A stretch of 64,000 nt of DNA from Ignavibacteria bacterium (GTDB lineage Bacteria; Bacteroidota; Ignavibacteria; Tepidaquicellales; OLB5), in the NCBI GenBank assembly GCA_017303675.1, contig JAFLBX010000001.1, positions 1,747,970 to 1,811,969 on the forward strand, in the 5' to 3' direction. The notes beneath the pieces were generated by a model. The model saw nothing but the letters and a program-made list of their open reading frames with translations. It searched no databases and had not been told where the DNA came from. A program made the position numbers and the translations under genes. Within the stretch, counting starts at the first letter, position 1; each line of letters starts with the position of its first letter. This document shows, one piece after another, positions 26,554-53,125 of this stretch.

Positions 26554-27004
26554 GTCATTCCCCTGCCTGCGTCAGGCAGGCGCGCAGTCGGGCACGAAAC
26601 TGGGAATCTAATTGCTTGTCATTCCCGCCGAGGCGGGAATCTAGACATGGATTTGAGATTCATCTATGAAGTTTGAAACGCTATGATTTTTAATCTATCA
26701 TTATCGCAAATATATGCTTACTTCTACATTTACTGCTTGTCATTCCCGCGCAGGCGGGAATCTAGACATGGATTTGAGATTCATCTATGAAGTTTGAAAC
26801 GCTATGATTATTAATCTAACTTTATCACAAATATTTGCTTACTTCTACATTTACTGCTTGTCATTCCCGCGCAGGCGGGAATCTAGACATGGATTTGAGA
26901 TTTATCTATGAAGTTTGAAACGCTATGATTCTTAATCTAACTTTATCACAAATATTCGCTTTTTCTAGCTTTATCGACTGGATACCCGCTTCCACGGGTA
27001 TGAC
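26554..27004. repeat. palindrome-ended repeat element, copy 2, internally expanded
   Basis: It starts with a diverged left end containing a GC-rich palindrome (CCTGCCTG..CAGGCAGG), then three successive left-end palindromes each followed by the core, then the right-end palindrome (CTGGATACCCGC..CGGGTATGAC, 26988-27004). The core sequence is clearly homologous to copy 1 at 25394-25570. Its right edge lies 13 nt from the stop codon of the methyltransferase gene. Confidence 0.85.
26613..26960. repeat. 121-bp tandem repeat, about three units, within element copy 2
   Basis: Units begin at 26613, 26734 and 26855 (period 121 bp), each opening with TGCTTGTCATTCCCGC and continuing through GGATTTGAGATT and GAAACGCTATGATT. 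Units two and three differ at only a few positions, so the expansion is recent. Confidence 0.9.
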
Positions 27005-38134: not shown

Positions 38135-39831
38135 ATAATTTAAGATTTTTAATATTACTAACTTTTTTAATCTTAATTACTGGAAATACATCCGCACAAC
38201 CGGTGGTTGAATGGACAGCGAGATTAAACGGTCTGCTTGATAGCACCGATGTTGCCTTGGATTTAACTGTGGATGCAGCAGGCAATACTTACGTCACAGG
38301 GTACAGCAACAGCCTTTTAGGCTTGCTTACCGGGGCAGTGACAGTAAGCTATGACCCGGACGGTAATACCAGGTGGCGCTCTGAATACGATCAGCTCTTA
38401 AACGATGCCGGTTCGGTTATTGCAATGGATAATACCGGGCAATATGTTTATGTAGCGGGTTATACCAATGCTCTGCTGAATCTTACGGCGGCGGATTACC
38501 TCATTATTAAATACCGTGCAAGTGACGGGCAGCAGATGTGGGCCCGGACCTATGGTTTCGGGCTGCTTGGTGATGATAAAGCTGCAGCATTGATAATTGA
38601 CTCTCAGAATAACCCTGTGATAACAGGTTATAGCCAGGGATTCCTGCTTTTATTAACCCCGTATGATTATGCAACCGTTAAATATGACCAAAACGGAAAC
38701 CAGCTTTGGGCACAAAGATATAACGGAACAGGCAATAACAATGATAAGGCATTTGGTATTGCTGAAGATTCTGACGATAACATTATTGTTACAGGCGAAA
38801 GTGTTGGAACCTCATCCGGCTATGATTATGCTACAGTAAAGTATGGACCCGATGGCTCGCAGCAGTGGGTGAGCAGGTATAACGGTACAGCTAATGACCA
38901 GGACAGATCATATGCTATAGTAGTTGATAATACAGATAATATTATTGTAACAGGTGAAAGCAGCGGCAGCTCATCAGGCGCGGATTATGTGACAGTGAAA
39001 TATAATCCTTCAGGTTCGCAGCAATGGGCAAGCAGGTATAACGGCTCGGGGAACAATGAAGACAGGTCTTACGCAATAGTTGTAGATAATACCGATAATG
39101 TTATTGTTACAGGCTCCAGCCGTTCCGCAGGTACACCGGGAAGTGAAGATTATGCAACAGTAAAATATAACCCTTCGGGTTCACAAATGTGGGTTTCCAG
39201 GTACAACGGCCCGGGAAACAATGAAGACAGGTCATATGCAATAATAGTTGATAACACCGATAATATTTTTGTCACAGGCTCAAGCCGTTCAGGCAGCTCT
39301 TCAGGTACAGAAGATTATGCTACCGTTATGTATTCTCCGGCAGGTTCAGAATTATGGGATGTAAGATATGACGGTACAGGAAGCAATGAAGACAGGGCTT
39401 ATGCCATTGTTGTGGATAATTCTGATAACATATACATTACCGGCTCCAGCAGAAACGGTTCTGTATTAGGTTCAGAGGATTACTTGACGCTGAAATACAG
39501 CAGAGAAGATCTCGTGCATATACCCCCGTATACCGGGATCGTTCCTTCTGAATTTAACCTGTATCAGAATTATCCCAACCCGTTTAATCCTTCAACTGTA
39601 ATTGAGTTCGATCTTCCGGAAGATGGATTTGTTACATTGAAAATCTTTAACAGCAGGGGGATTGCAGAAGAAACTATTATTCAGTCAGTTAAAAAAGCAG
39701 GAAAGTATTCAGTATTATGGAACGCTGAAAAATATCCTAGTGGTATTTACTTCTGCAGGCTTGAAGTATCGGGTATATCATCCGGTATGACTGCATTCAG
39801 CCAGACTAAAAAATTAATTTTTATCAAATAA
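38131..39831 (+). CDS. secreted SBBP-repeat beta-propeller protein with T9SS sorting domain
   Basis: 566 aa from a TTG start (a TAG 6 codons upstream excludes earlier ones). Signal peptide about 1-23. The body carries about seven SBBP-type repeats of 50-55 residues, each with the pattern DYATVKYxxxGxQxWxxRYNG ... DNIIVTG. The later repeats are nearly identical at the protein level, which points to recent internal duplication. The sorting domain starts at LYQNYPNPFNP (about 475) and ends KKLIFIK. Such propellers are surface or secreted proteins of unknown ligand. Confidence 0.88.
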   Translation: MNNLRFLILLTFLILITGNTSAQPVVEWTARLNGLLDSTDVALDLTVDAAGNTYVTGYSNSLLGLLTGAVTVSYDPDGNTRWRSEYDQLLNDAGSVIAMDNTGQYVYVAGYTNALLNLTAADYLIIKYRASDGQQMWARTYGFGLLGDDKAAALIIDSQNNPVITGYSQGFLLLLTPYDYATVKYDQNGNQLWAQRYNGTGNNNDKAFGIAEDSDDNIIVTGESVGTSSGYDYATVKYGPDGSQQWVSRYNGTANDQDRSYAIVVDNTDNIIVTGESSGSSSGADYVTVKYNPSGSQQWASRYNGSGNNEDRSYAIVVDNTDNVIVTGSSRSAGTPGSEDYATVKYNPSGSQMWVSRYNGPGNNEDRSYAIIVDNTDNIFVTGSSRSGSSSGTEDYATVMYSPAGSELWDVRYDGTGSNEDRAYAIVVDNSDNIYITGSSRNGSVLGSEDYLTLKYSREDLVHIPPYTGIVPSEFNLYQNYPNPFNPSTVIEFDLPEDGFVTLKIFNSRGIAEETIIQSVKKAGKYSVLWNAEKYPSGIYFCRLEVSGISSGMTAFSQTKKLIFIK

Positions 39832-40042: not shown

Positions 40043-40116
40043 CAGCGCATACGGGGATCGAACCCGTACTTTCCGCCTTGAGAGGGCGGCGTGTTAACCA
40101 ATTACACCAATGCGCC
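40043..40116 (-). tRNA. tRNA-Glu (anticodon CTC)
   Basis: On the minus strand: acceptor stem GGCGCAT/ATGCGCT (first pair G-U), D stem GTGT/ACAC, anticodon stem CCGCC/GGCGG around loop CTCTCAA (anticodon CTC), T stem ACGGG/CCCGT with loop TTCGATC, discriminator G. CCA is not encoded. All stems are intact. Charged by the GluRS encoded at 27900. Confidence 0.96.
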
Positions 40117-40282
40117 AAAAATCTTTTTCGCCGCTGTGCGGCGTGCGACCCTGCTTTAGCGTGGGAATTCCGCAAAATGAACACCTGAAATTAATATATT
40201 ACAAAAATATTAAAATTCTGAATGATTAACAATGATAGTAAAATGAATTTAATGAAAAAAAATTACAAATAATATTAAACAA

Positions 40283-51780: not shown

Positions 51781-51948
51781 AATTAAAATTTAATTTATTG
51801 GATTATTTAAATTTAAGGTAATATTTTAAAAAGTGATACAGAAAAATTAAAATTAATTAATATCAAACTTATTTTACTTTTTTATATATATCGGCGTCAT
51901 TTTAACATAAAAATAAACAGCTATTGCTGTCTTTTATTATTTTGCCCT

Positions 51949-51989
51949 ACTTGAAATGTCGTGAAACCTGGACTTTTCCTGACTAGGAT
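51949..51989. repeat. fragment related to the tRNA-Gln-derived repeats
   Basis: The stretch GAAATGTCGTGAAACCTGG and the following CTTTTCCTGACTAGG match parts of the copies at 52301-52445 and 52473-52579. It is the most distant and most decayed piece of that family. Confidence 0.6.
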
Positions 51990-52041
51990 AAATTACTTTA
52001 AATTATTTCTAAACTTTCTTAAATTTTAATAAACTTAAAAT

Positions 52042-52152
52042 ATGACTCCATAGGAGTCATATGTTTGTAGAAAAATTTTCAGTTAAAATTGCGACCCCAT
52101 AGGGGTCGCACATAATCATAAGTTATATGGATGTTTGACCCCTATGGGGTCA
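52042..52152. repeat. three spaced perfect palindromes of one design
   Basis: ATGACTCC-ATA-GGAGTCAT (52042-52060), GCGACCCC-ATA-GGGGTCGC (52091-52109) and TGACCCC-TAT-GGGGTCA (52136-52152). Each has a 7-8 bp stem around the same 3-nt loop (ATA or its complement), with related stem sequence. The last is followed by a T-run and could terminate plus-strand transcription. Confidence 0.8.
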
Positions 52153-52181
52153 GTTTTTTATGTGCTACCTCTATAAATGTG

Positions 52182-52198
52182 TGATGCGTACAGCATCA
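52182..52198. repeat. short palindrome TGATGC-N5-GCATCA
   Basis: A perfect 6-bp inverted repeat in the same hairpin-rich non-coding region. Confidence 0.5.
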
Positions 52199-52300
52199 GT
52201 GTATATTTTAATGAAGCTGTCTCAATTAGCAAATTTATACAAAATTTCTATTAAAATTTTTCAAGATTCCTGCTTTCTCAGGAATGACAAACTACTTTTT

Positions 52301-52445
52301 GAGTTACCCGACCAGGGACAGCCTGTCCTGACATGAAATGTCGGGAAACCTGGACTTTTTCTTAACACAATTAAATGGCGTGTTGAACTCCGCTGGAAGC
52401 GGAGTGAAATCCTGCTTTAGCAGGATTGTCAATTACACAATTAAA
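52301..52445 (-). pseudogene. decayed tRNA-Gln copy with two inserted hairpins
   Basis: Read on the plus strand, segments align in order with the complement of the intact tRNA at 53053: ACCCGACCAGGG (acceptor/T stem), ACCTGGACTTT, GGCGTGTTG and CAATTACAC (D arm). Between them sit extra palindromic sequences: one at the T loop (GGGACAGCCTGTCC, then GACATGAAATGTC) and two at the D loop (CTCCGCTGGAAGCGGAG, ATCCTGCTTTAGCAGGAT). The tRNA fold is destroyed. Confidence 0.65.
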
Positions 52446-52579
52446 AAAGACAGCTTTCACTGTCTTTATGTAGTTGCCCGACTAGGGACAGCCTGTCCCG
52501 ACATGAAATGTCGGGAAACCTAGACTTTTCCCGACACAAAGTGTCGGGACGTGTTTGCTTATTATACCATCATAAACAA
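52446..52579 (-). pseudogene. decayed tRNA-Gln cassette with one hairpin insertion
   Basis: A terminator hairpin (AAAGACAGC..GCTGTCTTT, one base changed) is followed by a tRNA-like segment. It starts GTTGCCCGACTAGGG and carries the T-loop insertion of the older copy, while the anticodon arm is replaced by CCCGACAC..GTGTCGGG as in the 111-bp units. It is intermediate between the older copy and the tandem array. Confidence 0.7.
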
Positions 52580-53023
52580 GAAAGACAGCTTTCGCTGTCT
52601 TTATAGAGTTGCCCGACTAGGGGTCGAGGCATAGACTTTTCCCGACACAGAGTGTCGGGACGTGTTTGTTTATTATACCATCATAAACAAGAAAGACAGC
52701 TTTCGCTGTCTTTATAGAGTTGCCCGACTAGGGGTCGAGGCATAGACTTTTCCCGACACAGAGTGTCGGGACGTGTTTGTTTATTATACCATCATAAACA
52801 AGAAAGACAGCTTTCGCTGTCTTTATAGAGTTGCCCGACTAGGGGTCGAGGCATAGACTTTTCCCGACACAGAGTGTCGGGACGTGTTTGTTTATTATAC
52901 CATCATAAACAAGAAAGACAGCTTTCGCTGTCTTTATGTAGTTGCCCGACTAGGGGTCGAGGCATAGACTTTTCCCGACACAGAGTGTCGGGACGTGTTT
53001 GTTTATTATACCATCATAAACAA
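52580..53023 (-). repeat. tandem array of four 111-bp pseudo-tRNA-Gln cassettes
   Basis: Units begin at 52580, 52691, 52802 and 52913 (period exactly 111). The first three are identical; the fourth differs at two positions. Each unit, read on the minus strand, is a tRNA-Gln-like segment followed by the tRNA's own terminator hairpin. The 3' acceptor strand and 3' T-stem (GACCCCTAGTCGGGCA) are unchanged from the real tRNA. The 5' acceptor strand no longer pairs, the T stem is broken, and the anticodon arm is replaced by the perfect hairpin CCCGACAC-TCT-GTGTCGGG. Open frames through the array only reflect the lack of stops. Confidence 0.85.
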
Positions 53024-53024
53024 G

Positions 53025-53046
53025 AAAGACAGCTTTCGCTGTCTTT
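53025..53046 (-). terminator. terminator of tRNA-Gln
   Basis: AAAGACAGC/GCTGTCTTT, 9-bp stem with 4-nt loop, 7 nt from the tRNA 3' end. The same hairpin recurs in every pseudo-tRNA unit. Confidence 0.8.
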
Positions 53047-53052
53047 ATGTAG

Positions 53053-53125
53053 TTGCCCGACTAGGGGTCGAACCTAGACTTTCCTGATCCAGAGTCAGGC
53101 GTGTTGCCAATTACACCATCGGGCA
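53053..53125 (-). tRNA. tRNA-Gln (anticodon CTG)
   Basis: On the minus strand: acceptor TGCCCGA/TCGGGCA (first pair U-A, typical of tRNA-Gln), D stem GTGT/ACAC, anticodon stem CCTGA/TCAGG with loop CTCTGGA (anticodon CTG), T stem CTAGG/CCTAG with loop TTCGACC, discriminator A. CCA is not encoded. It is the only intact member of the family of copies lying downstream of it. Confidence 0.95.

Follow-up and report, generated by a model that had tools for sequence, protein, structure and literature searches.

The described systems closest to the locus studied here are the palindromic elements of mitochondria, i.e., the GC clusters of yeast, the double-hairpin elements and the repetitive hairpin-forming elements of sponges (PMC4478555, PMC2800124), which share with our sequences short single or double palindromes, pairing that is kept while the sequence varies, a sporadic distribution, and merging or nesting. 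The sequences reported here differ from these elements in residing in bacterial chromosomes, in having duplicated tRNA arms and loops as their targets, in their linkage to GIY-YIG genes and in the replacement of whole arms, and no short target duplications were seen. REP sequences of the GTAG and CGTC superfamilies, with their RAYTs, are alike in forming palindromes of 20-40 bp with stems of 8-9 bp (PMC3733652); CGTC-family REPs have been reported from Chlorobi and Bacteroidetes, and members of this superfamily have complementary AT in the first stem positions and an unpaired CCA-like tail (PMC3733652). The free-standing GIY-YIG homing endonucleases of phages T4 and T6, of which SegB causes a tRNA-segB segment of phage T6 to be amplified in tandem, resemble the present system in a nuclease gene adjacent to tRNA genes, in tandem tRNA-nuclease amplification and in a target within the tRNA region, which here is predicted (PMC13096335); they differ from it in that our genes are chromosomal, encode proteins of about 80 aa and are accompanied by hairpin-bearing pseudo-tRNAs, and in that the array described below has no nuclease gene. 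Finally, partial tRNA genes are commonly left behind by the integration of mobile elements (PMC9897764).

The window, a 64-kb stretch of DNA from an Ignavibacteria bacterium, contains an intact tRNA-Gln(CTG) accompanied by a tandem array of dead copies of this tRNA and its terminator, the loops and arms of which are occupied by short perfect palindromes:

53052 to 53125, minus strand: intact tRNA-Gln(CTG), the parent gene (tRNA call, 63.8 bits)
53025 to 53046, minus strand: terminator-like hairpin of tRNA-Gln, AAAGACAGCGAAAGCTGTCTTT, present again in every unit (repeats at 52914, 52803, 52692, 52581 and 52446)
52915 to 53025, minus strand: U1, a 111-bp pseudo-tRNA-Gln unit with a hairpin in place of the anticodon arm, 2 nt different from U2-U4
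52804 to 52914, minus strand: U2, a 111-bp pseudo-tRNA-Gln unit (exact unit comparison)
52693 to 52803, minus strand: U3, a 111-bp unit identical to U2 (exact unit comparison)
52582 to 52692, minus strand: U4, a 111-bp unit identical to U2 (exact unit comparison)
52445 to 52581, minus strand: U5, an older 137-bp unit with the anticodon-arm hairpin and T-loop hairpins
about 52302 to 52444, minus strand: U6, an older copy with a D-loop double hairpin and T-loop hairpins
about 51915 to 51995, minus strand: U7, a decayed remnant with part of the variable loop and T arm (TCAGGAAAAGTCCAGGTTTCACGACATT...), then a terminator-like hairpin (terminator-like site 51932-51915)

The original prediction had described four 111-bp units beside the tRNA, three of them identical, together with two older copies; all of these were recovered, and U7 is a seventh copy lying beyond the coordinates covered at that time. 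Tandem Repeats Finder (TRF) reported a period of 111 with 5.1 copies and 98% matches. U1 differs from U2-U4 only by two nucleotides in the spacer, which reads CAACTACAT in U1, as behind the real tRNA-Gln, and CAACTCTAT in U2-U4; on the minus strand, U1-U4 have the order ...GATGGTATAATAAACAAACACG-[TCCCGACACTCTGTGTCGGGA]-AAAGTCTATGCCTCGACCCCTAGTCGGGCAACTMYAT-AAAGACAGCGAAAGCTGTCTTT. When aligned with the tRNA-Gln gene, the units are collinear with it from the D arm through the terminator, far beyond the 17 bp noticed at first, and the shared blocks comprise the D arm (GATGGTrTAAT...ACACG), the anticodon-loop core CTCTG, AAAGTCTA, TCGACCCCTAGTCGGGCAACTACAT and the terminator AAAGACAGCGAAAGCTGTCTTT. 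The predicted loss of acceptor pairing and the broken T stem hold for U1-U4, in which the 3' portions are best preserved. The further claim that decay rises with distance from the tRNA stands only in part, since the trend is not monotonic: U5 and U6 have an intact T-stem sequence, unlike U1-U4, and the D arm of U6 is more tRNA-like than that of the four 111-bp units. Lacking acceptor pairing or an anticodon arm, none of the units scores as a tRNA, and the gene at 53052-53125 is the sole tRNA call at the array; Rfam matches in the window were limited to two tRNAs, and no ORF lies between the copies, the units being 111-137 bp long. A 610-bp query matched this locus alone in its own genome (an assembly of 2 contigs with 100% completeness, the copy number of the array being as assembled). 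This single-locus match and the restriction of the TCCCGACA hairpins to pseudo-tRNAs led us to reject the array as a dispersed genome repeat.

The palindromes within the units are as follows:

52973 to 52993, minus strand: perfect hairpin of 9 bp in place of the anticodon arm of U1 (further copies at 52862-52882, 52751-52771, 52640-52660 and 52529-52549)
52496 to 52516, minus strand: TCCCGACATTTCATGTCGGGA, a T-loop hairpin of U5
52381 to 52427, minus strand: double hairpin within the D loop of U6, built as hairpin-TTTCA-hairpin-TTCAACAC (likewise in G002, G005, G008 and G009)

The replacement of the anticodon arm by a perfect hairpin, also part of the original prediction, proved to be an exact swap in U1-U5: the 17-nt arm (nt 27-43) is exchanged for a 21-nt perfect hairpin, TCCCGACAC-nnn-GTGTCGGGA, with a stem of 9 bp and a 3-nt loop, so that the arm is replaced and nothing is added to it, and the hairpin retains the loop core CTCTG. 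In U5, a further pair of hairpins occupies the T loop, flanked by T-stem strands that are intact; the T loop of U6 contains the same hairpins, and its D loop the double hairpin, which occurs at tRNA-Gln in five species with one architecture (hairpin-TTTCA-hairpin-TTCAACAC) and with stems that differ yet remain complementary. The pattern CCCGACAN3-8TGTCGGG has six sites in the window, all within the array, with 0 expected from shuffles, and all seven sites of TCCCGACAN3-10TGTCGGGA in the own genome are in pseudo-tRNAs, six at tRNA-Gln and one at tRNA-Pro(CGG). With shuffles and backward controls near zero, a chance origin of the hairpins was rejected.

Other repeats are also present in the window. 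Short palindromes tailed TGTTTGTAGAAA (ATGACTCCATAGGAGTCAT, GCGACCCCATAGGGGTCGC and TGACCCCTATGGGGTCA) at 52037-52200 resemble those beside a Y1 transposase gene of the own genome (L352) and would represent a REP/RAYT-type family adjoining the array. Palindromes of the TGTCATTCCCGC..GCGGGAATCTAG type, similar to CGTC-type REPs or Neisseria dRS3-like repeats, are found at 26613-26961 (with 2.9 tandem copies of a 121-bp repeat at 26613) and at 52268-52290. A palindrome chain (CACGCTAAAGCAGGG..., CGCCGCACAGCGGCG) lies immediately upstream of tRNA-Glu(CTC) at 40116-40180 on the minus strand, and a relative (G003) has tandem pseudo-tRNA-Glu copies bearing the T-loop double hairpin (L366, L370). The repeat at 38902-39404 is an imperfect tandem repeat of coding type (165 bp, about 3 copies).

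The tRNA-Gln genes of relatives were inspected, as proposed with the original prediction. Downstream pseudo-tRNA-Gln copies are present in G005, G002 and G013; the T-loop hairpin of U5 recurs in G005 and G002, and G005 has the anticodon hairpin of U5 in addition. G008 has its copies upstream, G009 has two upstream copies and none downstream, and in five further relatives (G004, G006, G007, G011 and G014) no pseudo-copy was found downstream, between tRNA-Gln and the next gene. Because the hairpins of the pseudo-tRNA-Gln are common to G005 and, in part, to G002, their acquisition is older than these species and older than the amplification, whereas the fourfold amplification of the 111-bp unit is probably recent, as judged from its three identical copies. 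Each step of the history read from the window at the outset, i.e., duplication of tRNA plus terminator, acquisition of a hairpin and recent re-amplification of an already dead unit, is consistent with the data.

The same hairpin was found at other tRNA genes. In the own genome, a GIY-YIG ORF lies between tRNA-Pro(CGG) and a pseudo-tRNA-Pro whose arm has been exchanged in the same way, and relatives carry the hairpin in pseudo-tRNA-Ala (G002, G003) and pseudo-tRNA-Pro (G001, G005, G006, G009). Among 294 genomes of the class, 36 have it in its tRNA context (GAGCG-TCCCGA...TCGGGA), with 0 in the backward-read control, and TCCCGA hairpins were found at at least 14 distinct tRNA loci (42 sites; expected 0.7) in eight genomes of the genus. 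The naming of this class as Ignavibacteria rests on a locus that G213 (L104) has in common with a Melioribacteraceae contig (L125). A scan of 84,980 species for the hairpin in tRNA context returned at least 117 stretches, and the phyla among the matches listed include Bacteroidota, Ignavibacteria, Neomarinimicrobiota, Acidobacteria, Chloroflexi, Nitrospirae, Verrucomicrobia, Patescibacteria and others; Flavobacterium and Niastella, which include cultured members, are among the genera with such loci. Among the matches listed, 108 loci were inspected: a tRNA gene overlaps the hairpin or lies within 1 kb in 79 of them, and a GIY-YIG ORF lies within 700 bp in 37. Most of the distant loci were chosen by the TCCCGA sequence, which biases the spectrum of palindromes everywhere except in the survey of 93 tRNA genes described below. 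Watson-Crick pairing at the first inner stem position was seen in 115 of 126 hairpins, with all four pair types represented, compared with a mean of 56 and a maximum of 73 in shuffles; therefore, stem pairing is kept under sequence change. The tRNA-Gln array is one case of a recurrent class at tRNA genes in several bacterial phyla, and the hairpin, originally envisaged as a single insertion, is one product of a process that has acted repeatedly on many tRNA genes, often with GIY-YIG genes. Five viral contigs also matched the hairpin; as judged by reading, three (L347-L349) represent one non-tRNA sequence. The other two, the IMG/VR contigs L345 and L346, show a hairpin-bearing pseudo-tRNA-Pro and a tRNA-Ala-like copy. 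With only these two of the five in tRNA contexts, a phage origin was rejected; the hairpin/pseudo-tRNA module may travel on phages or prophages.

A survey not selected for hairpins covered 93 tRNA genes of three genomes of the genus (G000, G002 and G012) and recorded fragments of at least 12 bp of a tRNA's own sequence nearby, outside any tRNA. Such cognate pseudo-tRNA fragments were found at 20 of the 93 genes, compared with 7 of 465 in the non-cognate control. Palindromes occupy the anticodon arm in Ile, Leu, Val, Ala, Arg, Pro and Gln copies, the T loop in Val, Pro, Ala, Ile and Met copies and the D loop in Cys and Gln copies; tandem pseudo-tRNA arrays were present at Ile-TAT, Cys and Val. 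In several T loops the point of insertion is precisely TTC^GAA, and no base is lost or duplicated. The same palindrome recurs at unrelated sites and sporadically among relatives, as in the mitochondrial elements: a 22-bp double hairpin, TCCCGAAGGGACTCCnnnGGAG, was located at 29 sites, spread over 6 of 11 genomes of the genus and over three kinds of context, which by reading are the T loops of pseudo-tRNAs of various types (15), the loops of unrelated palindromes (6; e.g., CCCCTCTCC...GGAGAGGGG) and other hairpin chains (8), and the TCCCGACA hairpin is found at copies of tRNA-Gln, -Pro and -Ala. Because TCCCGAAGGGACTCCnnnGGAG sits in the T loops of different pseudo-tRNAs and in the loops of unrelated palindromes, the double hairpin seems to be dispersed with a preference for hairpin tips. 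Upstream of tRNA-Arg(CCT) in G012 (L319), pseudo-tRNA-Arg copies lie in a long palindrome chain; hairpins have been inserted behind an anticodon arm that is itself intact, and also around the D arm, which looks like an intermediate step from insertion to arm exchange. At tRNA-Cys of the same genome (L315), three upstream pseudo-tRNA-Cys have kept their acceptor pairing, and CCCG hairpins replace the D loop and the region from anticodon to T loop.

Small GIY-YIG genes are strongly associated with tRNA genes and with these pseudo-copies. The eight genomes of the genus contain 53 small GIY-YIG ORFs, of which at least 18 have a listed tRNA no more than 300 bp away and always on the same strand; 0.4 were expected (P about 3e-25). 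By reading, about 14 of these 18 loci also carry, beyond the nuclease gene as seen from the tRNA, a pseudo-tRNA with a hairpin; loci with no clean palindrome are G004:C10, G009:C167 and a decayed one at tRNA-Pro of G002, and G002:C6 has an N gap. The tRNA-adjacent proteins of about 80 aa match Pfam GIY-YIG; they also match TIGR01453, a model of group I intron endonucleases, but below its cut-off. Tandem pseudo-tRNA/GIY units were found at two loci (tRNA-Met of G012 and tRNA-Pro of G000). Upstream of the real tRNA-Met, the loci L324 (G012:C14) and L334 (G010:C231) show tandem units of a pseudo-tRNA-Met with the hairpin TCCGCCGACTGGCGGA, a GIY-YIG ORF and a promoter-like flank. In the own genome, a GIY-YIG gene is present at tRNA-Pro, -Ser and -Met; none was found at the tRNA-Gln genes of the relatives inspected. 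Because the 64-kb window has no such gene either, an enzyme acting on the tRNA-Gln array would have worked in trans or in the past.

We therefore propose, at about even confidence, a recurrent module consisting of an intact tRNA, often a small GIY-YIG gene, and a partial tRNA copy whose anticodon arm, T loop or D loop contains palindromes. That the tRNA-Gln array is an ORF-less, re-amplified case of palindromic micro-insertion, in which redundant tRNA copies that probably stem from GIY-YIG-provoked breakage and tandem repair receive palindromes at their hairpin tips, is a reading we hold to be evenly poised between right and wrong. The mechanism that we infer would begin with a GIY-YIG nuclease, or another agent, breaking the tRNA DNA, and tandem copies would then arise through repair. 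Small palindromes would favour hairpin tips, either TTC^GAA of the T loop or the loops of other palindromes, and would come to rest in the redundant copy, doing no harm there and perhaps abolishing the cutting site. Unequal recombination between long direct repeats would amplify the dead unit, and no RNA function would be required. Several observations speak against this proposal: no GIY-YIG gene was found in the window or at tRNA-Gln of the relatives inspected, some GIY-tRNA loci have no clean palindrome, the exact replacement of an arm is unexplained by simple insertion, and the own genome has Y1/HUH transposases, which could in principle move palindromes.

Among the alternatives, the one that survives best is passive: slippage would duplicate tRNA genes, replication template switching (quasi-palindrome correction) would turn the unconstrained copies into perfect palindromes, and the GIY-YIG genes would be independent of both. 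Direct repeats do permit slippage, the stems change in concert, and arrays with no GIY-YIG gene exist (this window; G256, G178). However, local templating would not yield the same TCCCG start in different tRNAs and phyla, and neither the return of the 22-bp double hairpin in unrelated contexts nor the number and common strand of the tRNA-adjacent GIY-YIG genes fits this scheme, which we regard as unlikely.

Somewhat less likely still is that the palindromes are non-autonomous, REP-like elements that a Y1 (RAYT/IS200-type) transposase moves into hairpin tips, pseudo-tRNAs being merely tolerant targets. The precise insertions at TTC^GAA and the dispersal of the double hairpin would suit such an enzyme, and the own genome has nine Y1_Tnp matches, six of about 150-170 aa. 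Yet the TCCCGACA hairpins are not dispersed beyond pseudo-tRNAs in that genome, and anticodon arms are replaced rather than invaded. The array hairpins also depart from REPs in their features: they have no GTAG tag, CGTC appears only where the GCG of the tRNA abuts the T of the hairpin (GAGCG-TC, CACG-TC; GAGCA-TC in Ala and Ile copies), and the stem begins with TCCCG, not AT, with tRNA variable-loop sequence directly behind it instead of a CCA tail. As the palindromes flanking the Y1 genes at the four loci inspected, out of nine, are of other sequence, RAYT-mobilised REPs were rejected as the source.

Stacked attachment-site remnants, i.e., partial 3' tRNA copies (attR) left by tyrosine recombinase elements, are improbable. 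The best-preserved parts of U1-U4 are indeed the 3' ones, but the units retain the D arm and the tRNA terminator as well as an anticodon region in altered form, so that internal parts are duplicated and palindromes lie in the arms; the intervals measure tens to hundreds of bp (111-137 bp in the array), no integrase or cargo lies between the copies, and in relatives pseudo-copies occur on either side of the tRNA. Selection for tRNA-like decoy RNAs, the function suggested by the original prediction, or for regulatory RNAs is slightly more improbable again and found no support: strong predicted folding (z -4.1 for U1, -5.2 for U5), co-varying stems, three identical copies and a phenotype reported for one Bacillus cereus pseudo-tRNA (PMC3399842) are outweighed by units that have lost the tRNA features for processing, have no good promoter-like site inside and end in a predicted terminator-like hairpin, and by copy number, arm sequence and presence that differ among close relatives, several of which have no downstream pseudo-copy.

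Returning to palindromic micro-insertion into redundant tRNA copies, we note that the array, by analogy, appears to behave as the mitochondrial GC clusters, double-hairpin and hairpin-forming elements do, but in a bacterium, in tRNA copies and with a candidate enzyme, and there is a real chance that it represents a new class. In the literature searched, with most subscription journals outside its scope, no description was found of hairpin-bearing pseudo-tRNAs or of tRNA-linked chromosomal GIY-YIG modules, which is weak evidence. A bolder version, which we offer tentatively and consider somewhat doubtful, is that of phylum-crossing parasites of tRNA genes, in which minimal GIY-YIG modules would duplicate tRNAs, arm palindromes would immunise the copy or serve as a recognition signal, and ORF-less derivatives would be amplified.

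Mobile DNA has long been known to land at tRNA genes, but the exchanges seen here involve only tens of bases, with base-precise swaps of arms for palindromes in copies of many tRNAs and in many phyla, beside genes of a nuclease family with known cutters of tRNA regions, and this recurrence, together with the sandwiching of GIY-YIG genes, points to a little-noticed genomic parasite or repair scar at tRNA genes. If the link to the nuclease is true, it would constitute a bacterial counterpart of the mitochondrial GC clusters and double-hairpin elements with a testable enzyme, and it would account for many spurious tRNA-like annotations and for many small GIY-YIG genes adjacent to tRNAs.
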